A DNA stretch of 41,935 bases. Source: Christiangramia sp. (GTDB lineage: Bacteria > Bacteroidota > Bacteroidia > Flavobacteriales > Flavobacteriaceae). The notes beneath the pieces were generated by a model, which made no database searches, was not told the origin of the DNA, and saw nothing but the letters and a program-made list of their open reading frames with translations. This document shows positions 4,751-33,835 of this stretch, piece after piece. The translations under genes and the position numbers were made by a program. Where the stretch lies: the NCBI RefSeq assembly GCF_029937855.1, contig NZ_JAPYPC010000033.1, forward strand, positions 1-41,935, in the 5' to 3' direction. The stretch's first letter is position 1, and each line of letters starts with the position of its first letter.

Positions 4751-5086
4751 CCAGATATTATAACACAAGGTAAGCGTAAAGCCAGAAAAGAACATATTTG
4801 TGATTGGTGCAATTCAAAGATTCTTATAGGTGAATTATATAATCATGCAGTATTAAAGTATGATGATATATACACTTGGAAAAATCATATTGAATGTATG
4901 AAAATAGCTCAAGAATTGGATATGTTTTCTGAGACTGGTTCTGAAGGTCTTGATGCTGATTCTTTTAATGATTTTGTTAATTATGAATTTAGCAATCATA
5001 TAGATTCAATACCAGATGCAGTAGATAGAAAATATTCTTTAAAGGAAAAAGTAGATTTTTTACTTGACAACATTTTAAGTTATTAA
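4748..5086 (+). CDS. Conserved phage zinc-knuckle protein
   Basis: 112 aa. The N-terminal half holds a CxxC...HxxC cluster (C18, C21, H47, C50) following a basic segment (GKRKARKEHICDWC), a likely single zinc site; the rest is acidic and helical. It appears to belong to a small phage family that begins with a 'KARKxHxCxxC' element, though I cannot give a family name. Likely a nucleic-acid or protein adaptor. A 15-bp palindrome spans its stop region and the next gene's start. Confidence 0.6.
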   Translation: MPDIITQGKRKARKEHICDWCNSKILIGELYNHAVLKYDDIYTWKNHIECMKIAQELDMFSETGSEGLDADSFNDFVNYEFSNHIDSIPDAVDRKYSLKEKVDFLLDNILSY

Positions 5087-5090
5087 CTTA
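5076..5090. promoter_or_regulatory. Start-associated palindrome copy 1
   Basis: TAAGTTATTAACTTA: two 6-bp arms around a 3-bp centre. Its last A is the A of the helicase-methyltransferase ATG. One of eight copies in the window; the repeated placement at starts suggests an operator or translation-control element. Confidence 0.7.
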
Positions 5091-7828
5091 TGGATTACAC
5101 CGAATTTCTAAAGAATAAAGTGATCATTTCCGAAAAGTACGGATTTGAACCTGCAGCTCCTATTGGTAATTTGTTACCGCATGCCGAGTCTATCACCCAA
5201 TGGGCGTTAAAAGGAGGTAGAAGGGCTATATTTGCCAGTTTCGGACTTACCAAAACAGCCATGCAGTTAGAACTGGCTTACCAGGTAATTGAAAAGACCG
5301 GAAAACCTTTCCTTATCTGTATGCCACTTAATGTGATGCGGGAATTCAAAAAGGACAATAAAGAGTTCTTCCAGGATAAATATGAAACACTGTATATTAC
5401 CGATACAGACGATATGCCGGTGCAAATCGCAGAATCCAATGCGGTAGATCGTTTATCTAAAGGGAATCCTGAAGCATACGAAAAAGCTATTGAAAAGTAT
5501 CACACCGAACTTGACAAACAGGAACCCCGGAATTTTGATTATAAGCCTAAAGTCTATTTGACCAATTACGAAAGGGTTCGGAAAGGTGATATAGATCCGC
5601 TGAAGTTTGGAGGTGTTTCCATGGATGAGGCTTCCATATTACGAAACCTAAAGACCGAAACCACCAATTATGTACTAACCCACTTTAAAAAGGTACCGTA
5701 CCGCTTTGTGGCGACTGCAACCCCCTCACCTAACGAATGGATTGAGATATTGAACTATGCGGAATACCTTGGAATAGCAGACCGCGGACATATACTAACC
5801 AGGTTCTTTAAAAGAAACCCCACAAAGGCTGGTGACCTTACACTATTGGAAAATAAGAAAAAGGAATTCTGGCAATGGGTATCTACCTGGGCGGTTTTTA
5901 TTACCAAACCTTCAGATTTAGGATTTTCAGATGAAGGCTATGACCTTCCGGAACTTAAAATAGTGGAACACCGCATAGAGAATATTTCAGATGAGGTTAT
6001 AGTCAATAAACGTGGTGAGATCGTACTGGTAAAAGAGCAGAAAGGCGATCTTCAGGAATCTGCCAAAGAAAAACGCGAAACCATAGACCTACGGGTGCAA
6101 AAAGCGGTAGAATTAATCAAATCTGAAGAAAACCGGTATTCTACATGGATATTATGGCACCACCTGGAACCGGAACGTGTGGCCATAGAAAAATCTTTTG
6201 AAAATGATGAGTTTATCGATATAAGATCGGTATTTGGAAGTCAGAGCAATAAGGAAAAAGAAAGGCTGCTTTCCGATTTTTCAGATGGTTGTTACCAGAT
6301 CCTATCCACAAAACCATGTATAGCCGGTTCAGGAAGTAACTTTCAGCACGTATGTCATAAAATGGCCTATGTAGGAATAGATGATAAGTTCAATGACTTT
6401 ATACAGTCGGTACACCGTGTTTTCCGCTTCAGGCAGAAACATCAGTGTGAGCTTCACATCTTCTATACCAGCAATGAAGATAAGCGTTTCCAGAACCTGA
6501 TGCGTAAATGGGAACAGCATAAGGAACTGCAGCGCGAAATGATCAAGCTGGTTAAAAAATACGGACTAAACGATGATTTAATAAGGGACCAAATGGAAAG
6601 ACAATTATTTAAAAACGGTGATAAGACGTATATAGGGGAAGCTACCCTGTACAATAACGATAATGTGATCGCTATGGATGATATAGCGAAAGATTCGGTA
6701 GATCTTATTGTGACCTCTATCCCGTTCGGTGATCATTATGAGTATAGCAGCAACTATAATGATTTTGGCCATAATAACGGCAATGCTGAATTCTTTAAGC
6801 AAATGGAGTATCTAACTCCAAAGTTGTTAAGATCGTTAAAACCGGGACACGTGGCAGCTATACATGTAAAAGACAGGATCCGTTACTCTTACCAGAACGG
6901 TACCAGCTTTACTACCATAGAAGATTTTAGCGGGGAAACCGTACAGCATTTTGTAAAGCATGGCTTTTACCTTATGGGAAAGATAACCGTTACCACCGAT
7001 GTTGTTGCCGAAAATAACCAAACCTATCGCTTAGGACATTCACAGCAATGCCGCGATGCTAATAAAATGGGTGTTGGATTGCCTGAATATGTGTTGTTGT
7101 TCAGAAAAGCCCCTACGCATAGCAATAACAGCTATAGTGATGAACCGGTAAAGAAAGCCCGCAACCATGCCGATATGTGGTGCAATGACTGTAAAGATGT
7201 GGTATTTGTGGAAGAAGGAGCCTGCGCCACCTGTAACGGGGTGAATTTAGAACCACATGAGATCTATCCTGTTGATCTTTGGCAGTTAGATGCTCATGCG
7301 TATTGGAGAAGTTCCGGAAACAGGATTATCCCTGCTGAGGTCGCCAAAAAAAGAATGAAAGAAGTAGTACGGCAATGGAACAAATACCAGAAAGACGGTC
7401 TATATGATTTTGAAACCCATAAAGATCTAAGCAGTGAACTGGATAAGGCCGGGAAACTAAGCCGAAAGTTTATGACGATCCCGCCCCGCTCCAATAATGA
7501 ATTTGTTTGGGATGATATTTCCCGTACCAAAACACTCAATGCCAAGCAGGTTTCCAGCAAAAAAGAGAAACATATCTGTCCGTTACAATTAGATATTATC
7601 GACAGGCTTATAAACAGGTTCACCAATACCGGTGATATGGTACTGGATCCTTTTGGCGGTTTGATGAGTGTTCCCTACCAGGCATTAAGAATGGGAAGAA
7701 AAGCCATAGGGATAGAGCTGAACAGCGAATATTACAAAGACGGCTTGTTCTATGTAACATTGATTAATGAGAAAATAAACGCTCCTACATTGTTTGATAT
7801 GTTTGAGCCTGAACAAAAAGTAAGTTAA
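5090..7828 (+). CDS. SNF2-type helicase / DNA methyltransferase fusion
   Basis: 912 aa. Residues ~20-520 form a superfamily-2 helicase: degenerate Walker A FGLTKT (51-56, a T where G is usual), motif II DEAS (from 179), motif III TATPSP, and a C-terminal lobe with CIAGSGSNFQHV and the motif VI-like QSVHRVFR. Residues ~530-900 form a beta-class amino-methyltransferase: motif IV TSIPFGDHYEY (from 542), a CxxC/CxxC zinc insert (C698/C701, C712/C715), then the SAM-binding DPFGG (from 853). Motif IV before motif I is the permuted N4-C/N6-A order. It probably translocates on DNA and methylates it, protecting phage DNA from restriction; specificity is not visible. SIPF instead of the usual xPPY is noted. 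Confidence 0.85.
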   Translation: MDYTEFLKNKVIISEKYGFEPAAPIGNLLPHAESITQWALKGGRRAIFASFGLTKTAMQLELAYQVIEKTGKPFLICMPLNVMREFKKDNKEFFQDKYETLYITDTDDMPVQIAESNAVDRLSKGNPEAYEKAIEKYHTELDKQEPRNFDYKPKVYLTNYERVRKGDIDPLKFGGVSMDEASILRNLKTETTNYVLTHFKKVPYRFVATATPSPNEWIEILNYAEYLGIADRGHILTRFFKRNPTKAGDLTLLENKKKEFWQWVSTWAVFITKPSDLGFSDEGYDLPELKIVEHRIENISDEVIVNKRGEIVLVKEQKGDLQESAKEKRETIDLRVQKAVELIKSEENRYSTWILWHHLEPERVAIEKSFENDEFIDIRSVFGSQSNKEKERLLSDFSDGCYQILSTKPCIAGSGSNFQHVCHKMAYVGIDDKFNDFIQSVHRVFRFRQKHQCELHIFYTSNEDKRFQNLMRKWEQHKELQREMIKLVKKYGLNDDLIRDQMERQLFKNGDKTYIGEATLYNNDNVIAMDDIAKDSVDLIVTSIPFGDHYEYSSNYNDFGHNNGNAEFFKQMEYLTPKLLRSLKPGHVAAIHVKDRIRYSYQNGTSFTTIEDFSGETVQHFVKHGFYLMGKITVTTDVVAENNQTYRLGHSQQCRDANKMGVGLPEYVLLFRKAPTHSNNSYSDEPVKKARNHADMWCNDCKDVVFVEEGACATCNGVNLEPHEIYPVDLWQLDAHAYWRSSGNRIIPAEVAKKRMKEVVRQWNKYQKDGLYDFETHKDLSSELDKAGKLSRKFMTIPPRSNNEFVWDDISRTKTLNAKQVSSKKEKHICPLQLDIIDRLINRFTNTGDMVLDPFGGLMSVPYQALRMGRKAIGIELNSEYYKDGLFYVTLINEKINAPTLFDMFEPEQKVS

Positions 7829-7835
7829 TAACTTA
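7821..7835. promoter_or_regulatory. Start-associated palindrome copy 2
   Basis: TAAGTTAATAACTTA, beginning inside the last codons of the methyltransferase gene and ending 5 nt before the ATG at 7841. Centre is AAT rather than ATT. Confidence 0.7.
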
Positions 7836-7840
7836 AAATT

Positions 7841-8014
7841 ATGATAACAATACAAGCTAAGCTAATAAAGGAATACGCATCATCCTATTATTTGGATTGT
7901 GAAGGGGATAAAGTATGGTTTCCCAGATCACAGGTTGAATTTAATAAGGAAAAGGAAGAATTAACCGCTCCTGAGTGGTTGTTGAGACAGAAATTCCCTA
8001 ACGAAAACTTTTAA
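7841..8014 (+). CDS. 57-aa conserved-looking phage miniprotein
   Basis: A 57-codon frame from the ATG at 7841, placed right after a start-associated palindrome and ending 2 nt before the next gene. The product has a beta-strand/WFP core (YYLDCEGDKVWFPRSQVEF) followed by a helical basic tail ending in RQKFPNENF. The pattern 'xxVWxPKSQ' resembles small phage proteins often found beside nucleases or helicases, but no function is known. Confidence 0.65.
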   Translation: MITIQAKLIKEYASSYYLDCEGDKVWFPRSQVEFNKEKEELTAPEWLLRQKFPNENF

Positions 8015-8016
8015 TC

Positions 8017-8274
8017 ATGGAAATAGGACACGATTTCAATTTTGTAAACGGAGCCTTTGATACTAAACAAGGTGAATTGGTTGCCGTTCAAAAGAACAAG
8101 TATAAAGAAGTTCATTTATGCTTTAAAGCTAATATGAATATCCCTTTTGCTAAAATAAAACTTCATTCTGCAGATAGGTTTGAAAGTGCAGATAAAGTAA
8201 TGAATGATGCTTATCAATTAGCTACTGAAATAGCAAGAAGATTTAACGAATTCCCAAAAGAGAAAAAACTATGA
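8017..8274 (+). CDS. Hypothetical phage protein
   Basis: 85 aa, beta-rich N-terminal half and a helical C-terminal half (ADKVMNDAYQLATEIARRFNEF). No family recognised. It overlaps the next gene by 4 nt (ATGA), so the two are probably translationally coupled. Confidence 0.6.
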   Translation: MEIGHDFNFVNGAFDTKQGELVAVQKNKYKEVHLCFKANMNIPFAKIKLHSADRFESADKVMNDAYQLATEIARRFNEFPKEKKL

Positions 8275-8462
8275 TAGTTAGAAAACTAATAGAGAAGCTT
8301 CAAGAATATCCAAGCCACATGGAAGTATTCCTGGCAGAACGTAAAAGTGATTTTGCTTATGGATTGTTGAACTCAGTACATAGCCGTGAAATACCTTTTA
8401 TGGAAGATCCAGACGGACCGGAATTAAACAGAGATACAGTAATCATTTTAGATGAAGAATGA
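8271..8462 (+). CDS. Small phage protein
   Basis: 63 aa. The pattern KLIEKLQEYPSHMEVFLAE...RDTVIILDEE resembles a short phage family with a 'L.k.P.dmeV' N-terminus and a terminal hydrophobic strand plus acidic tail. Function unknown. It overlaps the next start by 4 nt (ATGA). Confidence 0.6.
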   Translation: MIVRKLIEKLQEYPSHMEVFLAERKSDFAYGLLNSVHSREIPFMEDPDGPELNRDTVIILDEE

Positions 8463-8659
8463 GCCTATCAGATCAAGAACAAACCGATATCAAAGCCATG
8501 CTTTTATTTCTAATAGAAAAGAAAGCTGAGGTTTCAGGAGGTCACTGCGGCTTTCATTTAAACGAACTCAATCCGTTCTTACAGGAACTGGAAGAAGAAG
8601 GGAAAATCAAATCCCGAGATACCATACATGCTAAACGATATTTTTTAAAAAATGGATAA
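8459..8659 (+). CDS. Small helical protein, possibly winged-helix
   Basis: 66 aa, wholly helical apart from a terminal hairpin (AKRYFLKNG), as in a minimal winged-helix fold. It overlaps both neighbours (4 nt upstream, 8 nt downstream). No family or DNA-recognition residues can be assigned with confidence. Confidence 0.55.
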   Translation: MSLSDQEQTDIKAMLLFLIEKKAEVSGGHCGFHLNELNPFLQELEEEGKIKSRDTIHAKRYFLKNG

Positions 8660-9128
8660 ATCAGCAATAATTTCAGAATGTAGAAAATACAGGTATTTAC
8701 TCAGAAGAATATGGGACGATAAAAAGCCTATGGTATGTTTTATCATGTTAAATCCATCTACAGCTGATAGTTTCGAAGATGATCCAACCATTAGGAGATG
8801 TATTGGATTTGCGAAATCTTGGGAATATGGAGGTATTTATGTGGTTAATTTGTTTGCTTACCGAGCTACAAACCCTAAAGATCTATTGAATGCTCCGGAC
8901 CCAATCGGTCAAAATAATTGGAGATACATACAGCAATACACTTCTGTATCTGAAAAAATTATTTGCGCCTGGGGAAATCACTCTATTGTAAAGAAAATTT
9001 CCAAGAAGTTCCCTAATTACAACCCACCTGTATCAAAAACTCTTTTTTGTTTAGGAAAGAATTCCAAAGGTGATCCTAAACATCCACTTTATTTAAAGAA
9101 AAATCTAAAACCAATTTTATTTAATTAA
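8652..9128 (+). CDS. DUF1643 family protein
   Basis: 158 aa. The sequence matches the DUF1643 pattern throughout: RYLLRRIWDDKKPMVCFIMLNPSTAD, DDPTIRRCIGFAKSWEYGG, VVNLFAYRATNPKDL, and later CAWGNHS and LGKNSKGDPKHPLYL. The family is widespread in bacteria and phages and has a conserved polar core, but its biochemical activity is not established. The start lies 8 nt inside the previous gene. It sits last in the early small-gene cluster, just before the replication module. Confidence 0.85.
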   Translation: MDKSAIISECRKYRYLLRRIWDDKKPMVCFIMLNPSTADSFEDDPTIRRCIGFAKSWEYGGIYVVNLFAYRATNPKDLLNAPDPIGQNNWRYIQQYTSVSEKIICAWGNHSIVKKISKKFPNYNPPVSKTLFCLGKNSKGDPKHPLYLKKNLKPILFN

Positions 9129-9141
9129 ATATTCATTCATT

Positions 9142-10200: not shown

Positions 10201-10202
10201 AA

Positions 10203-10269
10203 AAGCAGCTGTTATTTGGGTACGGATTACGCATCTTACCCCGGTGAATTAGTACCCAAATATCTGCTT
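10203..10269 (+). ncRNA. Intergenic stem-loop after the NdpA-like gene
   Basis: An 11-bp perfect stem (TATTTGGGTAC 10213-10223 with GTACCCAAATA 10252-10262) is extended after a small internal loop by AAGCAG (10203-10208) with CTGCTT (10264-10269). The 28-nt loop holds TTACGCATC and TACCCCGGTG. There is no T-tract, so it is not a classical terminator; it may be an RNA-processing site, a small RNA or an attenuator ahead of the clamp-like gene. Confidence 0.5.
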
Positions 10270-10275
10270 CCAAAA

Positions 10276-10290
10276 TAAGTTATAAACTTA
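10276..10290. promoter_or_regulatory. Start-associated palindrome copy 3
   Basis: TAAGTTATAAACTTA, 13 nt before the clamp-like ATG and 6 nt after the stem-loop. Centre ATA. Confidence 0.7.
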
Positions 10291-10303
10291 AAAACTAAAC
10301 CAC

Positions 10304-10864
10304 ATGAGTAAAGAAAAGTTTAATTTCAAAACAAATCTGCACATGATTGCCGGAACAAATGATTTAAGACCAATCATGCATTATATATATTTTAAAGATG
10401 GTTATGCATGGGTAACAGATGCACATGTTCTTATAAAGCAGCATTTAGATCATCATAAGGTATTGAATCCCGAAAACTTAAACGGGAAAGCCATTCATAG
10501 GAGAGTATTTCAAATGGTAAAACAAAAATTTGAGGTCGTCACTGCTACAGAGGAAGGTTTAAGATGTGCTGATTCTTTTGGGAATAAAGTATTATTTAAT
10601 TATGCCAATACTGAATCTGGAGATGCTGATTTTAATTTTGTCCATAATATGGAAACTATATTTCCTAAAACAGAACCTGCTGAGGTTTCCCAAATTGGTA
10701 TGAATTTGAATATACTTAATCGACTTAGAAAGGGAATGGTATTATCTGATATCGGCTGCAAATTTCAATTTTATGGTAAGAATAGAGCTATTCTAATAAC
10801 CTCAATGGGAATAGACAAGCAAACTGGAATTATAATGCCTGTAATGATATCTGGTGATGAGTAA
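10304..10864 (+). CDS. Sliding-clamp-like (DnaN-fold) protein, putative
   Basis: 186 aa. Residues 24-45 (IMHYIYFKDGYAWVTDAHVL) resemble the 'R..L..v.f...g..l.aTDg.rL' repeat of DNA polymerase III beta-clamp domains, and the C-terminus (GIIMPVMISGDE, 175-186) resembles the clamp's terminal MPMRL strand. At 186 aa it could hold one to two clamp domains rather than the usual three (~366 aa), so it would need to oligomerise to encircle DNA or act as a decoy. It sits immediately before the replication initiator, fitting a replication role. The 3' end overlaps the next gene by 8 nt. Confidence 0.55.
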   Translation: MSKEKFNFKTNLHMIAGTNDLRPIMHYIYFKDGYAWVTDAHVLIKQHLDHHKVLNPENLNGKAIHRRVFQMVKQKFEVVTATEEGLRCADSFGNKVLFNYANTESGDADFNFVHNMETIFPKTEPAEVSQIGMNLNILNRLRKGMVLSDIGCKFQFYGKNRAILITSMGIDKQTGIIMPVMISGDE

Positions 10865-12460: not shown

Positions 12461-12464
12461 CAAT

Positions 12465-12479
12465 TAAGTTATTAACTTA
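12465..12479. promoter_or_regulatory. Start-associated palindrome copy 4
   Basis: TAAGTTATTAACTTA lying between the helicase-loader stop and the ATG at 12490 (10-nt gap). Identical to copies 1 and 7. Confidence 0.7.
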
Positions 12480-12489
12480 AAAATCCAAT

Positions 12490-12768: not shown

Positions 12769-12847
12769 GGTACTGTAAGACCTAAAACACTGTAATGCAA
12801 TACGTTGCGCACCCCGTTTTTTTTACGCTTAACACTGATTTAAAAAC

Positions 12848-13576: not shown

Positions 13577-13708
13577 ATGAAAGACAAAACAAAATGTACT
13601 CACAACAATCAAACTACAATTGTTTTAAATGCTATTTGTGGTGTAGAAATTGTTGCTGAAAAATGCCAGGATTGCGGAGAGTTAATTAAAAAAAGATTCG
13701 AAAATTAA
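13577..13708 (+). CDS. 43-aa zinc-knuckle miniprotein
   Basis: A 43-codon frame 4 nt after terS. It contains C7-x-H9 and C30-x-x-C33 (plus C21), a likely single zinc site, and a basic tail (GELIKKRFEN). Its stop TAA is also the first three bases of a start-associated palindrome. Function unknown. Confidence 0.55.
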   Translation: MKDKTKCTHNNQTTIVLNAICGVEIVAEKCQDCGELIKKRFEN

Positions 13709-13720
13709 GTTATAAACTTA
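13706..13720. promoter_or_regulatory. Start-associated palindrome copy 5
   Basis: TAAGTTATAAACTTA, overlapping the previous stop codon and ending 2 nt before the ATG at 13723. Centre ATA, as in copy 3. Confidence 0.7.
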
Positions 13721-16440: not shown

Positions 16441-16455
16441 TAAGTTAATAACTTA
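16441..16455. promoter_or_regulatory. Start-associated palindrome copy 6, within promoter block P1
   Basis: TAAGTTAATAACTTA, 14 nt after the terL stop and 92 nt before the protease ATG. It begins the 69-nt block shared with 33821-33889. Confidence 0.7.
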
Positions 16456-16528
16456 TTAAATATTTGTAATTATTTGATTTTAAATAAAATAGGTTAGAAA
16501 AAAATTACAAATAAGCCCTTTACTTTTG
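16441..16528 (+). promoter_or_regulatory. Promoter block P1 for the head/tail operon
   Basis: 88 nt with the same architecture as 33821-33908. Bases 16441-16460 are identical to 33821-33840; 16485-16509 are identical over 25 bp to 33865-33889 (core AGGTTAGAAAAAAATTACA); the 24 nt between differ. After exactly 11 nt comes TACTTTTG (16521-16528), a perfect Bacteroidota -7 box (TAnnTTTG). TTAG at 16494 lies 23 nt upstream in the -33 position. The start should fall near 16532, giving a short leader to the ATG at 16548. Confidence 0.75.
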
Positions 16529-16547: not shown

Positions 16548-17786
16548 ATGAATTTTGGTTTAGCAAGAGAGATTTACGGGGTGTCACCATGGCATGTGGA
16601 TGTGGAGACGCTCCCTTCTCTGTTGTCTATCGTAGAGAATCACCCCACCATGGAAATTCCGGAGGTTCAGTATAACACCCCGGCATATCTCGTTTTTAAC
16701 GATTCCAAACTTATTTCCCGCCCTTACCAGTTAAGGAACACAGATAATTTTACCGGCATTGGCTTAATTAACATTAACGGGCCTATAACCGTTTCAGGAG
16801 GTGCTTCCAGCATGGGAATGAGACAGGTGAGATCGATGATGCTGGAAATGAGCAATGATAACAGGATTAAATCCTTTTTGGTTGTTGGTGACAGCGGTGG
16901 AGGATCATCTGCAGGCGTAGAGATCATGACAGATACTATCTCGCTGGTTAGCAAATCTAAATCTGTTTATGGGATCATTGAAAAAGGCGGTATGGCATGT
17001 TCTGCCATGTACGGTATCATGTCTGCCTGTAAAGCCATTTATGCGGAATCTGAAATGAGCCTTGTGGGATCGTGCGGAACCATGATGCAGTTTGAAGGCC
17101 GTGCGGCCAATTCAGAGCATGAAGGTAAAAAACACATCAGGCTATATGCTTCCAGATCTACCGAAAAGAATAAAGAGATTGAAGATGCGCTGAATGAGGA
17201 CAATTACAAATTGCTATACGACAATCTTCTAAATCCTATCAACGAACGTTTTTTAAACCTTATAGAATCTAACCGCCCGGCTTTAAAGGCTTCCGGTTTC
17301 GATACCGGTAAGGCCCTTTTCGCTAAAGATGCGGTTGGGACTTTCATAGACGGTATCAAATCTATGGGCGAAGTGGTTCAAATGATAGAACAGGAAATAA
17401 AAATGCCTACCCCGGCAGGAAGGGGAATTAATTCAATAAATAATCATGTTATGACAGTAGATCAGTTAAAACAGGATCACCCCGAAACTTATAATTCAAT
17501 TTTTAAGGCTGGGGTTAAATCCGAAGCAGGCAGGACAAAAGCCTGGATGGTACACGCTGAATCCGATCTTGAGAAAGTCAAGAGCGGTATTGAAAGCGGT
17601 GAAGAGATCTCTTCTGCAGATACGCAGGAGCTGATCCTTAAAAGTTTTTCACGTCAACACGTGAAAGACATGGAAACAGAATCAGTAACAGATGTGAAAA
17701 CCGAAGAATCTAAAGGTTCTGAAGGTGAGAAGTCTGAGCTTGATCAGTTTAATTCGAAGTTGGACGAAATGCTTAAAAACGCGTAA
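16548..17786 (+). CDS. Head maturation protease (S49/SppA-type) with C-terminal scaffold
   Basis: 412 aa. The S49 fold is visible from ~70 to 280: IGLININGPI, the oxyanion loop DSGGGSSAG (115-123), and the nucleophile S152 in GGMACSAMYG, then SLVGSCGTMMQF. The last ~100 residues are charged and helical (ETESVTDVKTEESKGSEGEK), as in lambda gpC/Nu3, where the protease gene ends in a scaffold domain. It should cleave scaffold and portal/capsid proteins within the prohead. It is the first gene under promoter block P1 and is followed 2 nt later by the decoration protein. Confidence 0.85.
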   Translation: MNFGLAREIYGVSPWHVDVETLPSLLSIVENHPTMEIPEVQYNTPAYLVFNDSKLISRPYQLRNTDNFTGIGLININGPITVSGGASSMGMRQVRSMMLEMSNDNRIKSFLVVGDSGGGSSAGVEIMTDTISLVSKSKSVYGIIEKGGMACSAMYGIMSACKAIYAESEMSLVGSCGTMMQFEGRAANSEHEGKKHIRLYASRSTEKNKEIEDALNEDNYKLLYDNLLNPINERFLNLIESNRPALKASGFDTGKALFAKDAVGTFIDGIKSMGEVVQMIEQEIKMPTPAGRGINSINNHVMTVDQLKQDHPETYNSIFKAGVKSEAGRTKAWMVHAESDLEKVKSGIESGEEISSADTQELILKSFSRQHVKDMETESVTDVKTEESKGSEGEKSELDQFNSKLDEMLKNA

Positions 17787-18245: not shown

Positions 18246-19322
18246 ATGGCTATTACACTTAATCAACACAAGGAGAATATAACCAAAAGGATCATTGGAA
18301 GATTCTCAGATAGCGTTGCGCCAAAGTTGGGGCTTTCAGCCTGGTTTCCTTCTACAACTACTACCTCTAAACAGGTAAGTATTGAGGTTCAGAGAAACAG
18401 GGCTTTAATTGCCGCTGATGTGAAGCGCGGAACTTCCGGAAACCTGAACACCTTCGGAAAAGACACCGAAAAGATTTACGTTCCTCCATTCTTTAAGGAG
18501 AAATTTGACCTTGCTGCACTGGATGTGTATGAAAGGACTTTCGGACAGGGAATGAATCCGGGTATGAACGAATACCGTAGCATGCTGGATACTGCCAATG
18601 AGAAATTGGAATCCTTGAGGTACAAGATAGATCGTTCTAAAGAATTGCAGCGTTCCCAGGTACTTCAAACCGGTATTGTAACCATGAAGAATGGGGATGC
18701 AATAGATTTCAAGCGTAAAGCTTCTTCTATTGTAGATCTTGGAGTGGGTAATTACTGGGCAGATGCTGGTACCGATCCTTTTGCAGATCTTGCTGAAGGG
18801 GTGAAGTTCATTCGCCAGGAAGGGAAGTCCGGTTCACGTAGCTACGATTGTATTATGGGAGCTTCTGTAGTGGCAGCCTTCCTGAACAATGCCAAAGTAA
18901 AGGAATCTGCAGATTTCCGTCACATAAAGGTGTTGGAAATTGGTACTACCATGTTCGAAGAGGTAACAGGACTTAATTTCCATGGCCGTATTTCCCTTAA
19001 GAACGGTAATATCGATATCTGGACCTATGATGATTACTACGAGAATGCAGACGGTAGCAATTCAGAATATATCGATGAAAAGAACGTGGTTCTTTTACCA
19101 CGTGACTTTAAAGGAAAACAGGCTCATGCCGGTGTACCTGCAATCATTAGAGATACTCAGAACGCTGAGTTCCCTGAATGGATCAGGACGGTAGCTACTG
19201 AGTATTACATTCACAATTATGTAGATCCTGAAGCTGCGGCTCACATGTTCGCAATCCTTTCTGCTTCACTTGCGGTACCGTTTAGTGTGGACAGGGTTTG
19301 GACAGCGAAAGTATTGGCGTAA
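18246..19322 (+). CDS. Major capsid protein, lambda gpE family
   Basis: 358 aa, close to lambda gpE (341). Typical stretches: ITKRIIGRFSDSVAPKLGLSAWFPS, TSKQVSIEVQRNRALIAADVKRGT, YVPPFFKEKFDLAALDVYERTFG, and the C-terminal VRTVATEYYIHNYVDPEAAAH. It forms the icosahedral shell (HK97 fold). Placed 1 nt after the decoration gene, so probably the same transcript. Confidence 0.9.
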   Translation: MAITLNQHKENITKRIIGRFSDSVAPKLGLSAWFPSTTTTSKQVSIEVQRNRALIAADVKRGTSGNLNTFGKDTEKIYVPPFFKEKFDLAALDVYERTFGQGMNPGMNEYRSMLDTANEKLESLRYKIDRSKELQRSQVLQTGIVTMKNGDAIDFKRKASSIVDLGVGNYWADAGTDPFADLAEGVKFIRQEGKSGSRSYDCIMGASVVAAFLNNAKVKESADFRHIKVLEIGTTMFEEVTGLNFHGRISLKNGNIDIWTYDDYYENADGSNSEYIDEKNVVLLPRDFKGKQAHAGVPAIIRDTQNAEFPEWIRTVATEYYIHNYVDPEAAAHMFAILSASLAVPFSVDRVWTAKVLA

Positions 19323-20085: not shown

Positions 20086-20672
20086 AAAATATCATACCGG
20101 AACAAAACTTTGAAAAAGTAGGTCAGCAGATTGGGGCAATCCTTCAACTGGAATTGAGCAATCAAAAGACCTTACAGAATTTCACTGAGCCGGTAGATGT
20201 TTACCTGGAAAGGATGGACCCGCCTAACGATCATGAAAAGATATTTGTGAATGTTTTATACAGCGGTACCAATAATAATGAGGACAACCAGAAAAGATCT
20301 CAGGGGAACGTTAACTATTATGTAGATGTGTATTCTACAGGTAAATCTTCAGAAAATAGGTCGGGCGATCTTGATTCTAACGTACGCTGCAATAAGTTCC
20401 TTGGGATGATACGCTATATACTTTCATATACGGGATATAAAACACTTGGATTCGCTCCTGGTTTTATCGGTAACGTATCTGTGGAAAGTATAGAAAAAGG
20501 CTCCCCGGAAAATGTAGATACTAATTACACTACCATGGGACGCATTACATTATCTGTAAGAATGATTGAAGATCAGGAACTGGAAACAGGACCTGTTTTA
20601 TCTGAAGCTTTAACCGGTGTGAAACTGGATTTAACTGAAAAAGGTTACCAATACAAAACAATTAAATTATGA
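20070..20672 (+). CDS. Tail terminator / completion protein (putative), TTG start
   Basis: 200 aa from a TTG overlapping the previous gene by 16 nt; no ATG occurs before residue ~48, so the TTG is favoured. The beta-rich sequence (DVYLERMDPPNDHEKIFVNVLYSG...NYYVDVYSTG) and its position immediately before the sheath gene match myovirus tail-terminator proteins, which cap the tail and dock it to the head. The last codons overlap the sheath start by 4 nt. Confidence 0.55.
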   Translation: MAAIIENIIPEQNFEKVGQQIGAILQLELSNQKTLQNFTEPVDVYLERMDPPNDHEKIFVNVLYSGTNNNEDNQKRSQGNVNYYVDVYSTGKSSENRSGDLDSNVRCNKFLGMIRYILSYTGYKTLGFAPGFIGNVSVESIEKGSPENVDTNYTTMGRITLSVRMIEDQELETGPVLSEALTGVKLDLTEKGYQYKTIKL

Positions 20673-22195
20673 CAGCAATTTCAACCGCCGTTGGACTGGA
20701 AAGAAGATCTCGAACCAGCGGTTATAAGATAAAGAAAGGTTTCTTTGAGCCTAATACACCAAACCTGGCGCAGATAGTAGCTGTGTTGGGCGAGGCTAAC
20801 ACCGCAAATCAAGCTAATCTGGACACCGATCCTTTTGAATTTACATCTGCCCAGGAAGTAGGTGAAAGATATGGATATGGTTCCCCACTTCACCAGGTAG
20901 CCCGTATTTTAAGGCCTTCAAATTCTGAAGGTATTGCCGGGATTCCCACAGTGATCATTCCGCAGGTTTCAGATGTAGCTGCAAGTGCCACTTCACATGA
21001 CTGGACCGTAACAGGGGCTGCTACAGAGAACGCCACACATTCTTTAGTGATATCGGGCCGTAGAAATGTAGATTTTCAGGAATACTCTTTTACAGTAGTA
21101 AAAGGTGATAGTGCTGAAACCATTGCACAAAAAATGGCAGATGCGGTGAATTCCGTATTATCCAGCCCGGCAACTGCTACGGTAGATCCTTTAACTCCAA
21201 CCATTGTAACCCTTACAACCAAATGGAGCGGAGCTACCAGTTCAGAACTTAAAACAAGAATTTCCATAGGCAGCAAGCCAGCAGGAATAACTTATAGCCA
21301 GTCTAGTATCACCGCCGGTGCAGGAGCGGTAGATCTTGCAGGTGCTTTAGGGCATTTTAATAATGTGTGGTACACCTCTGTAATTAATCCTTATACCGCT
21401 CACCTGGATACGTTGGAACAATACAATGGCATTCCGGATCCTGAAAATCCTACAGGTCGATATGAAGGCACCACCTTTATGCCCTTTATGGCTTATTTCG
21501 GTTCCACTTTAGACGATAAAGATGCTTTGGCAGCGATCACAGATGCGGCTGCAAGGGTAGATCAGGTAACCAACGTTCTTTGCCCCGCCCCAAAATCTGA
21601 AGCTTTCCCATGGGAAGCAGCGGCCAATGCGGTACGTGTTTTCGCCCGTATTATGCAGGATAACCCTCATTTGGATATCAATAACAAATCCTATCCCGAT
21701 ATGCCGGTACCGGACAATGGGAACATAGGCGATATGTCTGTGTACAATAACCGGGACTTTCTCGTAAAGAAAGGATGTTCCACTGTTATATTGGACAACG
21801 GGGCCTATAAGGTACAGGATTTCGTTACTACTTACCACCCTGCAGGGGAAAGCCCTTTACAGTATGCGTATGCCCGTAATTTGAACTTAGACTGGAATGT
21901 TTCCTTCACTTACAGGGTGATCGAGAATGTTTCTGTAAAAGATCATGTACTGGTTGCAGACGGACAGGTAACAGGTGTGGATAAGGCCATTAAACCTGCA
22001 GAATGGAAAGCAGTTCTTTCCACGCTATTTGAAGACCTTGCAAACAGGGCATTATTGAATGATCCTGAATTTAGCAAGACCAGTCTTCAGGTACAAAGAA
22101 GCACGGCAAACCCGGACAGGTTTGAAACTTCTTTCAGGTATCGCAGAACAGGTATCGCACGAATTGAAAGCACGGATGTTGAAGCCGGATTTTAA
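20669..22195 (+). CDS. Contractile tail sheath protein (Mu gpL-like)
   Basis: 508 aa. Typical sheath landmarks: N-terminal extended arm, LAQIVAVLGEANTANQANL, SAQEVGERYGYGSPLHQVARIL, a domain with VISGRRNVDFQEYSFTVVKGDSAETIAQ, and a C-terminal region with QVQRSTANPDRFETSFRYRRTG. Sheath subunits encase the tail tube and contract to drive it through the envelope. This gene is the main proof of a myovirus. Tail tube follows 19 nt downstream. Confidence 0.9.
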   Translation: MTAISTAVGLERRSRTSGYKIKKGFFEPNTPNLAQIVAVLGEANTANQANLDTDPFEFTSAQEVGERYGYGSPLHQVARILRPSNSEGIAGIPTVIIPQVSDVAASATSHDWTVTGAATENATHSLVISGRRNVDFQEYSFTVVKGDSAETIAQKMADAVNSVLSSPATATVDPLTPTIVTLTTKWSGATSSELKTRISIGSKPAGITYSQSSITAGAGAVDLAGALGHFNNVWYTSVINPYTAHLDTLEQYNGIPDPENPTGRYEGTTFMPFMAYFGSTLDDKDALAAITDAAARVDQVTNVLCPAPKSEAFPWEAAANAVRVFARIMQDNPHLDINNKSYPDMPVPDNGNIGDMSVYNNRDFLVKKGCSTVILDNGAYKVQDFVTTYHPAGESPLQYAYARNLNLDWNVSFTYRVIENVSVKDHVLVADGQVTGVDKAIKPAEWKAVLSTLFEDLANRALLNDPEFSKTSLQVQRSTANPDRFETSFRYRRTGIARIESTDVEAGF

Positions 22196-27729: not shown

Positions 27730-27730
27730 T

Positions 27731-28786: not shown

Positions 28787-29952
28787 AAACATTAAATCAA
28801 TTACCTGTTCCACAGGATACGGATAGTTCAAAATGGCCTTTTGGAAATATAAAGAATGAGACCGAAACGGAACCGGGAACTCCTGTAGTAAGGGAAATTT
28901 ACGGTGATGTTTTGGTGAACATGTATAAGATCCTTCAGGATTCCGGGATATCTCCCAGCGGTCAAGAAGATTCAGAGCAGGCCGGTTACCAGATCTTACA
29001 GGCTTTTAAAAATTTTGTGAATGATCTGAACGATATCGAGAAAGTAACCACTTTGACCGGTACCCAGTGGATCATAAACATGGATATCACTAATTTACCC
29101 GATAAGTACGTGGTATTCGCGCGAATGAGCGAGGCTTACGATAAAAATCAGACTTACACTTTTAAAGGTTCTACAGGAACGGAATATAGTTTTAAGTCCC
29201 CCACCGGTTTTAATGCTTCAGATGAAGCTTTGATCGTAATAGATCAGGCTGAGGTTAGGGCCTATTCTTTTTCAGCGGTTACAACGGCGGTTACTTCAGG
29301 TGGTGTATTTCCTGTTTTCGGAAATCCATTAGCTTTTAATAATACCGATACGCTCTATTATGAATCTGAAGGTTCTATTTTAACCGATACGCCAAGTATC
29401 AAGAACTTACAGCAGTCCATCAGGCTGTTAACAAGTGTAAGCACTCTATATGTGAATGAGATTCTTGTTTTAAAATCCCACGTGTTTTGTGTGGCATTTG
29501 ATACCGCTGCGGTAAAATACAGGTTCTTTCAATTCGCTTTGGCCGATCTTGATACCGCTGAAGAGATCACCGTTACCGGTGTTACCATGACTGAAGGCAC
29601 CGATAACAGCCCCTATATTTTTACGGACGGGGTATATATCTATATGACCAATTCCAGCAACCGATCTGCAAATGATTTTGAACTGGATAAGTTCGCGTAC
29701 GATCCAGCTACAGATTCGCTGACATTTTCACAGTCGGTAAGCCTGGAACCGGGTTATTTTAAGACCACAAATACAGTGATCTCGAACGGGAACCTGATAA
29801 CCTTTGCAGATGGAAGCCTGGTAAGGTATGCTTTAAGCAATGGAGCTTCCACTTCACTTGGACAATATAATGCTGTAGCGGGAATAATATTTAATTACAA
29901 CGGGCAGGTATTTTATACGAATGGGGAAGTTGCTAAAAATTGGAATGTTTAA
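28783..29952 (+). CDS. Tail fibre-type structural protein 2
   Basis: 389 aa, overlapping the previous gene by 4 nt. The N-terminal domain repeats the neighbour's attachment-like motif (PGTPVVREIYGDVLVNMYKIL, then SEQAGYQILQAF). The rest (from ~100) is beta-rich with repeating segments such as YRFFQFALADLDTAEEITVTG and NGNLITFADGSLVRYALSN, which look like propeller blades or a receptor-binding head. Probably binds the baseplate through the N-terminus and the cell surface through the C-terminus. A start-associated palindrome follows its stop. Confidence 0.6.
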   Translation: MKTLNQLPVPQDTDSSKWPFGNIKNETETEPGTPVVREIYGDVLVNMYKILQDSGISPSGQEDSEQAGYQILQAFKNFVNDLNDIEKVTTLTGTQWIINMDITNLPDKYVVFARMSEAYDKNQTYTFKGSTGTEYSFKSPTGFNASDEALIVIDQAEVRAYSFSAVTTAVTSGGVFPVFGNPLAFNNTDTLYYESEGSILTDTPSIKNLQQSIRLLTSVSTLYVNEILVLKSHVFCVAFDTAAVKYRFFQFALADLDTAEEITVTGVTMTEGTDNSPYIFTDGVYIYMTNSSNRSANDFELDKFAYDPATDSLTFSQSVSLEPGYFKTTNTVISNGNLITFADGSLVRYALSNGASTSLGQYNAVAGIIFNYNGQVFYTNGEVAKNWNV

Positions 29953-29953
29953 A

Positions 29954-29968
29954 TAAGTTATTAACTTA
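29954..29968. promoter_or_regulatory. Start-associated palindrome copy 7
   Basis: TAAGTTATTAACTTA, 1 nt after the fibre gene's stop and 11 nt before the ATG at 29980. Confidence 0.7.
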
Positions 29969-29979
29969 AATATATAATT

Positions 29980-30210
29980 ATGTCACAAAAAGTAAGAGCA
30001 AAATTCAATTGCCATTATATCCAGAAACATGAAGATGGATCTAAAACTGTTCACATGATGGCAGTTACATCAGGAAGTGAAGAAAACGAAAGTTTTTCTG
30101 AATACACACCTTCAGGAAATTTAGATATAAAAATTGATAAAGGTGAAGCTAAAAATGCTTTCAAAGAAGGGAAGGATTATTATTTAGATTTCACTGAAGC
30201 TCCAGAATAA
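29980..30210 (+). CDS. Conserved small phage protein
   Basis: 76 aa. The pattern KVRAKFNCHYIQKHEDGSKTVHMMAVTSGSEENESFSEYTPSGNL...KDYYLDFTEA resembles a small beta-sandwich-like family common in Bacteroidota phages. No function is known. It sits between a start-associated palindrome and a structured 160-nt gap, and interrupts the tail module, which suggests a cargo gene or a small structural partner. Confidence 0.6.
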   Translation: MSQKVRAKFNCHYIQKHEDGSKTVHMMAVTSGSEENESFSEYTPSGNLDIKIDKGEAKNAFKEGKDYYLDFTEAPE

Positions 30211-30300
30211 AAACCTTACGAGATAAAGATCCTTAGTTGTCGCTAATGTAGGCCACTGTGATGCGTAAGTTAGTTCAGGTCGTAAGGGGGTTTATTTTTT
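30211..30300 (+). terminator. Structured leader/terminator with alternative pairing
   Basis: CTTACG (from 30215) can pair with CGTAAG at 30264-30269 or with CGTAAGG at 30281-30287; the second forms an outer stem CCTTACGA/TCGTAAGG followed by GGGTTTATTTTTTT, a terminator-like T-tract. The two pairings exclude each other. This gap (30211-30371) holds no ORF of note. Downstream, AAGACTGG is repeated at 30330 and 30346 before the next ATG at 30372. Confidence 0.55.
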
Positions 30301-30371
30301 TAACCTAATCATTGCCTGTAAATCATGGTAAGACTGGCACCGGGAAAGACTGGATTTTTTAAATAAAAAAC

Positions 30372-31115
30372 ATGGCAAATTTTGATGTAAATACTGATGG
30401 TGCAATTAAACTCACCGCGAAACTGGAAAAGCTCCACAGGTCGGCTTTCCCGGTGGCAGTTCGCGGCACGTTGAACGATACTGCTTTTAAAACAAAGTCG
30501 CTGGTACCTAAAGTGGCAAAGTCAAAATTTACCACACGTCAAAAGAGTTTCTTTAGGGCATTTTCCACGGTAGATAAAGCCAAAGGTTTTGACCTTCGAA
30601 GCATGAAAGCCACTACCGGTATAAATTCCCGAAAAGGAAGTAAGGTTGCTGAAGGACTGGAAAAGCAGGAATTCGGCGGTAATATTCAGGGGCGTAAGCT
30701 TATCCCCATGGACACGTCCAGAACTTCAAATAGCCATGATAAAAAGGTACGCAGGAAACACCGTTTTGACAGGTTAGGGAAAACAATCAGGATCCGTGGA
30801 CGTGGAAACCGCGGTACCCGAAAAAGTAGACTGGTTGCAAGGGTAATGGTTGCTAACCGTTTAGGAGCTTCACATTTTATAACCAACCGGGGCGGAAAGG
30901 GAACTTTATTTGAAATTGATAGTGTAAGGCAGAATATCAGGACAAAAAAGATTAAGTTCAAATTGACCCCGCTTTACAGGTATAGAAAGTCAAGAATATC
31001 TTCTGTAACCAAAAAACCTTTTATGCAGCCTTCAGCGAAATTAGCCAGTAAACAGATGCTTAATTTCTACAAGAAGAACGCTGAAAAACAATTTCACAGA
31101 TTACTACGTAAATGA
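30372..31115 (+). CDS. Minor tail protein, lambda gpZ-like (putative)
   Basis: 247 aa, strongly basic. The N-terminal helix (TDGAIKLTAKLEKLHRSAFPVAVRGTLNDTAFKTKSLV) has the 'alpha helix before a joining domain' pattern of gpZ/tail-completion proteins. The middle is very R/K-rich (RRKHRFDRLGKTIRIRGRGNRGTRKSR), unusual for tail proteins and suggestive of nucleic-acid contact. It overlaps the next gene by 4 nt. Assignment is tentative; the placement among baseplate hub genes supports a tail role. Confidence 0.5.
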   Translation: MANFDVNTDGAIKLTAKLEKLHRSAFPVAVRGTLNDTAFKTKSLVPKVAKSKFTTRQKSFFRAFSTVDKAKGFDLRSMKATTGINSRKGSKVAEGLEKQEFGGNIQGRKLIPMDTSRTSNSHDKKVRRKHRFDRLGKTIRIRGRGNRGTRKSRLVARVMVANRLGASHFITNRGGKGTLFEIDSVRQNIRTKKIKFKLTPLYRYRKSRISSVTKKPFMQPSAKLASKQMLNFYKKNAEKQFHRLLRK

Positions 31116-32323
31116 GTTGGAAAGATAAAATAGAAAACGGGATATTTAAGATCACCACCGGGGACGGTAAAACTTTCAGGCCGCTATGGAAGCCGGGCGA
31201 ATCTTCTATAGAATTCAATACGTCTGCGTATAGTTTTATAAATCTGGAAGGCACTTTGGTAGATCGAAAGAAACCACAATCCAGTAAATATCCTTTGGTA
31301 TTCTGGTTCCAGGGTGAAGATCATCTGGATGAGGTGAAGACGTTCTTAAATGCTTCCAAAGATTCGCGCGCATGGGAAATAGAACATCCTATATATGGAA
31401 TTATAAACGGCCAGCCTATCAGCATAAAGCGCAATGATGTAAATTATAACATTACTGAAATAAGTGTTGAATTCTGGGAAAGCATTTCCGTAGATTATCC
31501 CGATGATGATATTTCAGTTTCCGACAGGATCCAGGCTAAATCTGTTTTGGTCCGTTCAGAAGCTGTTAAGACCTATCTTGGATTTCAGCCAGCCACTTCA
31601 GATATCGCTACCACCAAAAGGACCACTGTCCAGATCGCAGCAGATCTTATCAAACTGGCCGGTGACAAAAAGGTAGATTACGAGAATACGGCCAACACTG
31701 CGGTAAAATCTGTAGATAAACTTATAAGTTCCCAGGAAGCTACCATTAGGGAACAGCAGGGCATATTTACCAGTTTTGTAGGTTTTGATGCTTCGGTAAA
31801 AAGGAAAGTGAACTTTATAAAGAACAGCATCCAGACACTTTTCGAAAATACCGAAAAAAGAAGTGATAAGTTCCTGTACGAGAGTCAGGCTGCAACGGCT
31901 ATTTCCTGTTTATGTGAAGCGGCGGTAAATCCGGTAGCTTTAGATTATATAAGCCGTGCAGACATAGATGAGGTGGTAAATGCTATTATTGAGGTCCACG
32001 GGAACTACTTACAGACTTTAGATGCCGCCCAGGTGAGCCGGTATGATATTGAAAACACCTGGAACCCCGATGTTAATTTACAATTATCACTGAATGACCT
32101 GGTAGTAGATACCATAGGAAGCCTTCAAACCTTAGCCTTTGAAGCCAAACAGGAACGTATTGTTTATACTGAAAAAGCTACCAATCTCATCATTCTAACG
32201 CACCGGTACCTGGGGCTGGATATTAACGATGAAAACCTTGAGCGTTTCCGAAAGATCAATAATATTAAAAATGAAGAGCTGTTTTCAGTAAAGAAGGGAA
32301 GACAGATAAAATATTTTGCATAG
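31112..32323 (+). CDS. Mu gpN-like DNA circulation / baseplate hub protein
   Basis: 403 aa. The N-terminal ~170 residues (GTLVDRKKPQSSKYPLVFWFQGEDHLDEVKTFL) fit the DNA-circularisation N domain, and the C-terminal ILTHRYLGLDINDENLERFRKINNIKN followed by FSVKKGRQIKYFA is the family's typical end. In Mu, gpN contributes to the baseplate; the family name comes from a proposed circularisation role. It precedes the gpP-like gene by 3 nt, in the Mu order N-P-45. Confidence 0.75.
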   Translation: MSWKDKIENGIFKITTGDGKTFRPLWKPGESSIEFNTSAYSFINLEGTLVDRKKPQSSKYPLVFWFQGEDHLDEVKTFLNASKDSRAWEIEHPIYGIINGQPISIKRNDVNYNITEISVEFWESISVDYPDDDISVSDRIQAKSVLVRSEAVKTYLGFQPATSDIATTKRTTVQIAADLIKLAGDKKVDYENTANTAVKSVDKLISSQEATIREQQGIFTSFVGFDASVKRKVNFIKNSIQTLFENTEKRSDKFLYESQAATAISCLCEAAVNPVALDYISRADIDEVVNAIIEVHGNYLQTLDAAQVSRYDIENTWNPDVNLQLSLNDLVVDTIGSLQTLAFEAKQERIVYTEKATNLIILTHRYLGLDINDENLERFRKINNIKNEELFSVKKGRQIKYFA

Positions 32324-32326
32324 TAG

Positions 32327-33343
32327 ATGAAAATTAAGATCAACGGTACTTTTATAAAATTCTTTGATGAGGTAAGCTATGCGTTAAATCTTGATAGCGT
32401 AGCATCGGTATTTTCATTTGTTGGAAGGTACAACCCGGAAAACCCCCTGCATAGAAAAGTATTCAAACCTTTGTCTTATGCGCGGGTGGAAATATTCACC
32501 AATGAATATAAGTTACTGCTAACAGGTACCATTGTAAACCATACGTTCAATTCTAAGGACCGCCCGGAGCTGTGGAAGCTTTCCGGTTATTCTCTGCCCG
32601 GTGTGCTGGAGGATTCTAATATAGCCTATGATCAGTACCCGCTGGAATCGCTTAACCGAAACTTACAGGATATTACAGAAAGGCTTATATCTCCTTTCCA
32701 GTTAAAATTAGTGATAGATTCTGCGGTCTCCAAAGATGCCGGTTTGATCTTTGAAAAATCGGTTGCAAGCCCTTCAGAAAAAATAAAGGATTATCTGGCT
32801 AAGATTGCCAGTCAGCGAAACATCGTTCTATCTCATACGCCAAAAGGGGAATTATTGTATTTCAGGCCAAACACAAAGTCAGCCCCAAAGCATCGGTTTA
32901 AAAAGGAAACCGGCATTGAAATGAACCTTGGAGTTCAGGGCCAGGGATTGCATGATAAGATCACCGTATTAAGGCAGCCTTCAGATGATTCCGGGAATAT
33001 TTCCCCGGTAGATAGTACCCGTAACCCCTTGGTAAATGATTACCGCCCTTCGGTACAGGTTTTAAGTTCAGGAACTGAGACCGCGACAAAACTTGCAGCG
33101 GAAAACGAACTTGCCGCAGAGTTAAAGAATATCACCGTATCGATCAGCTCCAACAAAGTTTTAGAGCTGGTACCTGGTGACATTGTTGAGGTTAAGAATG
33201 ATGAAATATTCCTATTTGAATATACCCGTTTTATGATAAGTTCGGTAGTCGTAAAAGAAACGAATAATAGTGATGAGATGGTTCTTTCCCTAATGTTACC
33301 AGAAGCTTTCACCGGGGAACAGCCTAAAAACATATTTTCATGA
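32327..33343 (+). CDS. Baseplate hub protein, Mu gpP (gp44)-like
   Basis: 338 aa. The sequence YALNLDSVASVFSFVGRYNPENPLHRKVFKPLSYARVEIFTNEYKLLLTGTI and VSPxxK..DYLAKIASQRNIVLSHTPKGELLYFRPNT follow the gp44/late-control-D hub pattern, a trimer at the base of the tube. It overlaps the spike gene by 4 nt. Mu order N-P-45 is preserved locally. Confidence 0.8.
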   Translation: MKIKINGTFIKFFDEVSYALNLDSVASVFSFVGRYNPENPLHRKVFKPLSYARVEIFTNEYKLLLTGTIVNHTFNSKDRPELWKLSGYSLPGVLEDSNIAYDQYPLESLNRNLQDITERLISPFQLKLVIDSAVSKDAGLIFEKSVASPSEKIKDYLAKIASQRNIVLSHTPKGELLYFRPNTKSAPKHRFKKETGIEMNLGVQGQGLHDKITVLRQPSDDSGNISPVDSTRNPLVNDYRPSVQVLSSGTETATKLAAENELAAELKNITVSISSNKVLELVPGDIVEVKNDEIFLFEYTRFMISSVVVKETNNSDEMVLSLMLPEAFTGEQPKNIFS

Positions 33344-33828
33344 TAAGCCTTGCGAAAGTTAAAGAATGGACACTGGAAAATGGGAAAAGGATCCTGAAGG
33401 TGTTGCAGTATGGCCCGAAAACATCTAAGGTATCGGCTCCCTTTGGTGATGATTCTAATCCTATTAAGGATATGACCGCGATACTTGCCGAAACCGGTGT
33501 AAATGGAGAGCCTATCATTTTGGGGTATATCAATAAATCCCAAATCGCTAAAGTTGGGGAAAAAAGGATTTTCAGCTTAAAGGAAAACGGGGAGCTGTCT
33601 TCTTTTATCTGGCTTAAGAATGATGAGACCATTGAGATAGGTGGAAATTTAGATTTTGCGGTGCGTTTCAACAAGCTTAAAGAGGCACTTGATGTAAGGG
33701 ATCAGGATATAAATGCAGAACTTACCAAGATCGCAACCGGGATAACTGCAGCGGGTGGTACTTATACACCCACACCCATAAGTACCGATATAAGTGCAGC
33801 CAAAAATGATAAGATAAAATTAAGTTAA
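33340..33828 (+). CDS. Baseplate spike, Mu gp45-like
   Basis: 162 aa. An N-terminal OB-like part (GKRILKVLQYGPKTSKVSAPFGDDSNPIKDMTAILAETGVNGEPIILGYIN) leads to a beta-helix stalk (RIFSLKENGELSSFIWLKNDETIEIGGNLDFAVRF) and a Pro/Thr-rich tail (GGTYTPTPISTD). This is the gp45/gpV membrane-piercing spike. The classic HxH iron tip is not visible at the C-terminus. The stop lies inside the palindrome that starts promoter block P2. Confidence 0.8.
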   Translation: MISLAKVKEWTLENGKRILKVLQYGPKTSKVSAPFGDDSNPIKDMTAILAETGVNGEPIILGYINKSQIAKVGEKRIFSLKENGELSSFIWLKNDETIEIGGNLDFAVRFNKLKEALDVRDQDINAELTKIATGITAAGGTYTPTPISTDISAAKNDKIKLS

Positions 33829-33835
33829 TAACTTA
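33821..33835. promoter_or_regulatory. Start-associated palindrome copy 8, within promoter block P2
   Basis: TAAGTTAATAACTTA overlapping the stop of the spike gene, 77 nt before the gpW-like ATG. Identical to copies 2 and 6. Confidence 0.7.

Follow-up and report, generated by a model that had tools for sequence, protein, structure and literature searches.

Short sequences repeated at many sites along a phage genome have been described in Cluster O, Cluster A and Cluster K mycobacteriophages, and three reports on them (PMC4351075, PMC6550527 and PMC3203893) serve here as the basis for comparison with a palindrome, TAAGTT-N3-AACTTA, that recurs in a prophage of Christiangramia sp. The DNA analysed, referred to here as the window, is one entire contig (C3, 41,935 bases) of an assembly (G000) comprising 3,906,436 bases in 80 contigs and 99.89 % complete. 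The palindrome is probably a DNA operator, and its copies fall into two classes, one at fixed distance from two putative late promoters and the other at gene junctions within operons.

Of the published systems that we found, the palindromic repeat of Cluster O comes closest, and not the start-associated sequence (SAS) of Cluster K. The Cluster O repeat of Corndog is a 17-bp sequence, TGTTCGG-N3-CCGAACA, present in 34 copies; like the palindrome described here, it is a dyad of two invariant arms separated by an A/T-rich 3-nt centre, is present in many copies, many of them in short intergenic gaps, is absent from the host, and has been proposed as the site of a dimeric protein (PMC4351075). Invariant arms, a variable A/T-rich 3-nt centre, multiple copies and absence from the host are all found here. 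The two differ in copy number (10 versus 34), in sequence, in the length of the arms (7 bp in Cluster O) and in host phylum, and the phages are non-homologous. Eleven of the Corndog copies are clearly in coding regions and most are off-promoter, whereas two of the copies here keep a fixed promoter spacing; the Cluster O authors thought transcriptional regulation unlikely (PMC4351075).

The stoperators of the Cluster A phage L5 are similar in being short sites repeated across a prophage, mostly off-promoter, but they are asymmetric, follow the direction of transcription and are bound by the immunity repressor, which binds at the early promoter too (PMC6550527), whereas the sites here are palindromic and the early promoter is without a copy. 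An L5-type operator at the early lytic promoter was thus not found (locus L005, positions 8287–8415). The Cluster K SAS of TM4 is 13 bp long, asymmetric, contains AGGAG, is typically in one orientation 3–7 bp before starts, and occurs only in the non-structural half of the genome (PMC3203893). The palindrome resembles it in adjoining start codons, in sometimes holding the upstream stop and in being phage-specific, and differs in being a perfect 6-3-6 dyad lacking AGGAG; neither the asymmetric, one-orientation form with a Shine–Dalgarno core nor a position tied to the start was found. The analogy to the Cluster K SAS drawn in an earlier, sequence-only reading of the window is therefore not upheld, the element being a dyad and not a 13-bp asymmetric AGGAG sequence (PMC3203893), and its closeness to starts not going beyond what random placement gives (P = 0.25). 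Taken together, the palindrome network would fall under distributed phage operators, a known kind, in a new form.

Eight copies of TAAGTT-N3-AACTTA are present in the window, against 0.01 expected from 100 dinucleotide shuffles (at most one copy in any shuffle), in agreement with the earlier chance estimate of about 0.01; the eight coordinates and sequences in that reading are all exact. The 3.9-Mb assembly contains ten exact copies, the eight in C3 and two in contig C46 (at 240361 and 241382), and none elsewhere. Both C46 copies are within 1.6 kb of the end of that contig (241918), where an XRE repressor gene on the minus strand is followed by a divergent operon whose second gene encodes a LuxR-type protein. 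When the final 42 bases of C46 are aligned without gaps to the first 42 of the window, 37 of 42 positions agree. From this and from the phage-type genes at the C46 end we infer, given the five mismatches, that this end very probably carries the left end of the window prophage, with all ten copies then belonging to one prophage. The presence of tail sheath, major head protein, portal and GpA-type terminase genes identifies the window phage as a myophage. The arms are identical in all ten copies and the centre is invariably ATT, AAT or ATA; a 7-1-7 dyad, TAAGTTA-N-TAACTTA, also fits eight of the ten. In a genus-level search of 24 genomes, own included, more than two copies were found only in the own genome, and a longer class B pattern occurred at more than one place in that genome alone among 397 family genomes, which represent part of the family (two overlapping readings in G265 count as one place).

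All ten copies are at gene junctions, as had been proposed for the eight in the window. Two of them, at 16441 and 33821 (class A), open the putative late promoter regions P1 and P2, and the remainder constitute class B. The features of the window are as follows.

5076..5090: class B palindrome, TAAGTT-ATT-AACTTA; takes in the stop of 4748–5086, and its final A is also the first letter of the ATG of 5090–7828 (methylase/helicase)
7821..7835: class B palindrome (AAT); overlaps the stop of 5090–7828, with ATG 7841 5 nt further on
10276..10290: class B palindrome (ATA); stop 10200 is 75 nt before and ATG 10304 13 nt after
12465..12479: class B palindrome (ATT); stop 12460 is 4 nt before and ATG 12490 10 nt after
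13706..13720: class B palindrome (ATA); its TAA serves as stop codon for the open reading frame ending at 13708, and ATG 13723 is 2 nt after
16441..16455: class A palindrome (AAT) of putative late promoter P1; the terminase stop is 13 nt before; orthologues in L010 and L009 (one arm mismatch)
16489..16508, + strand: conserved box of P1, ATAGGTTAGAAAAAAATTAC, 48 bp from the palindrome start
16521..16528, + strand: −7 box of P1, TACTTTTG (TAnnTTTG), 80 bp from the palindrome start; promoter predicted from sequence
16548..17786, + strand: opening gene of the P1 operon, encoding an S49-type protease; the genes for the major head protein (18246–19322) and tail sheath (20669–22195) come after it
29954..29968: class B palindrome (ATT); stop 29952 is 1 nt before and ATG 29980 11 nt after; the orthologous site in L127, TAAGTTTATAACTTA, precedes a different gene
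33821..33835: class A palindrome (AAT) of putative late promoter P2, overlapping with the upstream stop at 33828; L127 has the orthologue, and L171 and L177 carry that same sequence
33869..33888, + strand: conserved box of P2, ATAGGTTAGAAAAAAATTAC, 48 bp from the palindrome start
33901..33908, + strand: −7 box of P2, TAAATTTG (TAnnTTTG), 80 bp from the palindrome start; promoter predicted from sequence
33913..34212, + strand: opening gene of the P2 operon, phrog_5196, with the portal protein gene (34215–35816) after it
942..950, + strand: half-site TAAGTTATG, candidate only
4742..4750, + strand: half-site TAAGTTATG, candidate only

The two half-sites are present as reported earlier; the + strand of the window holds 27 TAAGTT hexamers, eight of them inside palindromes.

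Class A is defined by its distance to TAnnTTTG, which we take to be the Bacteroidota −7 consensus. At both P1 and P2, ATAGGTTAGAAAAAAATTAC is 48 bp and TAnnTTTG 80 bp from the palindrome start, and the corresponding values in relatives are 48 and 80 bp in L010, 49 and 81 bp in L127, and 44 and 81 bp in L009, whose site has one arm mismatch, so that the distance to the −7 box is 80, 80, 80, 81 and 81 bp at the five class A sites. TAnnTTTG occurs ten times in total on the + strand of the window, and none is found within 130 nt downstream of the nine class B copies checked (eight in the prophage, one in L127), on which ground hidden internal promoters at class B copies were rejected. The copies at 16441 and 33821, which the earlier reading placed at the start of promoter blocks, thus form a putative promoter class of their own. 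Another candidate for the −7 box itself, ATAGGTTAG, was abandoned once TAnnTTTG appeared further downstream at all five class A sites. Within the window and L005, TAGGYTANANAAAA is found only at P1 and P2. P1 precedes the head and tail operon, and P2 precedes the portal operon. A collinear prophage in G229 (terminase 62 % identical) is devoid of the palindrome. Over the 75 kb retrieved there, another element, AATTCTAGGAA...TTACGGGTAGTTTTGGTCA (about 45 bp), has exactly two copies, at C1:174998 and C1:192631, the junctions matching P1 and P2; a near-identical copy of this element is at P1 of L013. P1 and P2 thus have the appearance of conserved late promoters whose control sequences can be swapped.

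Among four orthologous pairs of sites, 47 of 48 arm positions are identical; for the 33 nt alongside, the figure is 59 of 132. At the L127 site orthologous to 29954 the arms are kept though the downstream gene is a different one, of 79 amino acids (aa), and G229 has neither site nor small gene at this position, the flanking genes being about 20 nt apart. The search of related genomes that had been suggested as a check thus yielded class A orthologues in L010, L009 and L127 and an orthologue of 29954 in L127, with these arms preserved. Of ten loci returned by one search, only L010 is a relative; L027, L028, L029, L031, L033 and L034 share one repeated element, and L026, L030 and L032 resemble chance occurrences. 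Among 228 loci listed, two copies are present in L127, L206 and L331, and several window proteins mark L127, L171 and L177 as relatives; for a further 18 loci with one copy each, no window homologue was found among the matches listed. In the phage collection, the terminase and the LuxR-type protein find their best matches in Cellulophaga, Flavobacterium and Polaribacter phages, which, with the TAnnTTTG promoters, points to a Flavobacteria-like host.

Because the copies are confined to one prophage, their arms are near-invariant and their spacing to the −7 box is fixed at the late promoters, including those of relatives, the palindrome is probably a DNA operator, in line with the operator for a phage regulator that the sequence-only reading had offered as one option. 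The fuller proposal, that the network consists of operators of a phage-encoded dimeric DNA-binding regulator with separate late-promoter and in-operon roles, has in our judgement an even chance of being correct. At P1 and P2, the bound protein would act with the head/tail and portal promoters, most simply as an activator from about −85, and could also insulate the late promoters from the upstream operon. In the early operon and at 29954 it would form a stoperator-like roadblock to transcription, a role for class B that we put forward only tentatively. One protein could in this way raise late genes while lowering early genes. Two points weigh against this arrangement: the P1 and P2 spacing could be partly kept by descent, and a position of about −85 is far for an activator site.

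The regulator is most likely to be a NarL/LuxR-type protein encoded at L005:8758–9357, although its binding to the palindrome is a guarded assignment, held at less than an even chance. A Pfam scan of 30 proteins identified two helix-turn-helix (HTH) regulators, the XRE repressor and this 199-aa GerE-domain protein; other DNA-binding proteins may exist beyond those scanned. The gene of the GerE-domain protein is the second of the early operon, with a stop 4 nt before the first palindrome copy. The C terminus is NarL-like by profile, with a GerE/NarL-type HTH, and no solved structure matched the N-terminal part at E 0.01. NarL sites are inverted heptamers arranged 7-2-7 for a GerE-type dimer; the palindrome, read as 7-1-7, would likewise be a pair of inverted heptamers, with a different spacer.

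Full-length homologues with E below 1e-15 are encoded in 12 other genomes among the 397 family genomes searched, in Polaribacter phage Leef_1 and Cellulophaga phage Ingeline, and in one of 13 viral records (L358 in G419); among viral contigs the LuxR-type search yielded no relative, and among genome contigs a single weak match. For comparison, 16 LuxR-positive phages were assembled (the window, G419, the 12 genomes, Leef_1 and Ingeline_1), with one representative each for Leef (two records) and Ingeline (nine records), the 12 genome stretches spanning 37.6–54 kb with host DNA included. Eight LuxR-negative relatives comprised G229 and seven of the 12 viral records lacking a LuxR match, some of them incomplete, so that absence is no proof. 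In a de novo palindrome search of these phages, none was seen to carry a repeated dyad like that of the window. The motif TGTCC[AT]TT is found in at least four junctions in 11 of the 16 LuxR-positive and none of the eight LuxR-negative phages (Fisher P = 0.002), and G123 is a twelfth, with the variant TGTCCTATT in seven junctions. A −7-like sequence (relaxed pattern) lies exactly 28 bp downstream of 27 of 92 TGTCC[AT]TTT boxes, the next commonest offset having eight cases. The LuxR-type family is, on this comparison, a fair candidate for late control. The junction element itself was seen in L035, L036 and the LuxR-type regions of G030, G273, G340, G100, G331, G259, G143, G266 and G405, several copies lying directly after a terminator-like hairpin, and it looks like a late-promoter class.

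Several observations count against assigning the palindrome to the LuxR-type protein. TGTCC[AT]TT is in only two junctions each in G285 and G096, and in none in the window and G419; when exact 9-mers are counted, only eight of the 16 LuxR-positive phages score above every one of 60 shuffles, and the window is not among them. The recognition helix carries Tyr in the proteins of the window and L358, two phages each with a repeated sequence of its own, and His in ten of the 12 TGTCC phages (the exceptions being Leef_1 and G259), and as G285 and G096 have His too, this covariation is weak. The palindrome-bearing relatives are represented in the data without their early region. The broadest version of the proposal, a NarL/LuxR-type master regulator family common to temperate phages of Bacteroidota with a DNA site rewired from phage to phage (mostly TGTCC, here the palindrome), and in this phage a dual switch that turns late promoters on and halts its own early operon in one event, is an unlikely one as a whole.

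A further point against this assignment gives rise to the leading alternative. In the window phage, the TGTCC position is occupied by a TAGGTTA box, 31 bp before the −7 box, and because of this placement the palindrome may belong to another protein. The LuxR-type protein would then bind the TAGGTTA box at P1 and P2, and another small protein, for example one of 98 aa (L005:7060–7356) or 94 aa (L005:8416–8700), would bind the palindrome. The similar distances of the two boxes upstream of −7 (31 bp versus 28 bp for TGTCC), the restriction of TAGGYTANANAAAA to P1 and P2, and the by-eye resemblance of the 98-aa sequence to an XRE-type HTH are consistent with this division, but neither small protein has a Pfam match, and the 94-aa protein, the one of the two covered by the PHROG scan, has no match there. 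We consider it somewhat unlikely.

Less probable is silencing of the Cluster A type, with the prophage immunity repressor on all ten sites keeping early and late operons off in the lysogen. The sites are many, mostly off-promoter, in short junctions near stops and starts, and spread across early and late operons, and the Cluster A repressor binds 20–30 sites and blocks elongation (PMC6550527). The region between the early promoter and the divergent XRE gene, however, holds no copy: at L005:8287–8415, TATATTTG and palindromes such as ATTGCGCAAT are present and the TAAGTT dyad is not found, so the XRE repressor probably uses another site. The defining early-lytic operator is therefore missing, on which ground an immunity-repressor operator was rejected, and fixed spacing to late −7 boxes is unexpected for pure roadblocks.

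That the palindrome works as RNA near starts, in a small hairpin or leader tuning translation initiation of the downstream gene, is decidedly improbable. This view draws on the eight of ten copies that end −1 to 15 nt before an ATG and on a one-orientation start-associated sequence in the LuxR-positive L358. Distances from palindrome to downstream start, in the order 5076, 7821, 10276, 12465, 13706, 16441, 29954, 33821 and the two L005 copies, are −1, 5, 13, 10, 2, 92, 11, 77, 13 and 15 nt, and those to the upstream stop are −11, −8, 75, 4, −3, 13, 1, −8, 4 and −8 nt. The earlier statement that six window copies end 0–13 nt before an ATG is right as to the six, the range being −1 to 13 because the final letter of the copy at 5076 is the A of ATG 5090. 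Such closeness is at chance level in junctions this short: seven of ten copies have a start no more than 13 nt away, and 5.75 would do so if placed at random within the same junctions (P = 0.25, with a gene list hand-picked from the open reading frames and a few starts shifted), and 'start-associated' cannot be separated from 'junction-associated'. Hairpin stabilities of the ten copies are near those of shuffles (z −1.88 to 0.39), the arms are kept as sequence with no compensatory pair change seen in ten copies and four orthologous sites, and the two copies 77 and 92 nt from a start are upstream of likely promoters and hence outside the likely transcript. With no AGGAG in the palindrome either, the earlier ribosome-site option lost its footing, and the translation reading was dropped on the placement and folding results. 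Least likely of all, and by some distance from probable, is a boundary or recombination sequence marking sites of gene exchange, for although 29954 is kept while the small gene after it differs between the window and L127 (G229 having neither), 13706 is in a segment between terminase genes that is absent from G229, and Cluster O phages recombine between repeats (PMC4351075), the sites 12465, P1 and P2 are at junctions with unchanged gene order in G229, and promoter spacing is fixed.

Other elements were seen alongside these. L358 (G419, 56.6 kb), whose LuxR homologue is 42 % identical, carries a non-palindromic sequence, CAACAATTAATA, in 12 exact copies on one strand, mostly from a few to about 20 nt before ATG, which comes closer to an SAS than the window palindrome does. 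A strong hairpin (z −3.57) is at 10202–10274 of the window, between stop 10200 and the palindrome at 10276, and 2864–2896 matches the cis-regulatory RNA DUF805b (Rfam RF02914) with 41.8 bits against a gathering score of 35.6. At its left edge the prophage has, at L005 6960–7020, a sequence that by eye resembles the 3′ part of a tRNA on the reverse strand and is possibly attL; ARAGORN detected no tRNA in L005.

To our knowledge, late-gene control in Bacteroidota phages is little described; our literature search found no paper on stoperators in Bacteroidota or on LuxR with a promoter in a Polaribacter phage, and nothing on this subject among the matches listed. The layout described here offers two putative late promoters that can be tested, a 15-bp probe of defined sequence and a candidate protein. 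Should the class B sites prove to block transcription, a Bacteroidota phage would have a stoperator-like system built on a palindrome, and if the dual switch is real, early shut-off and late turn-on would be a single event.

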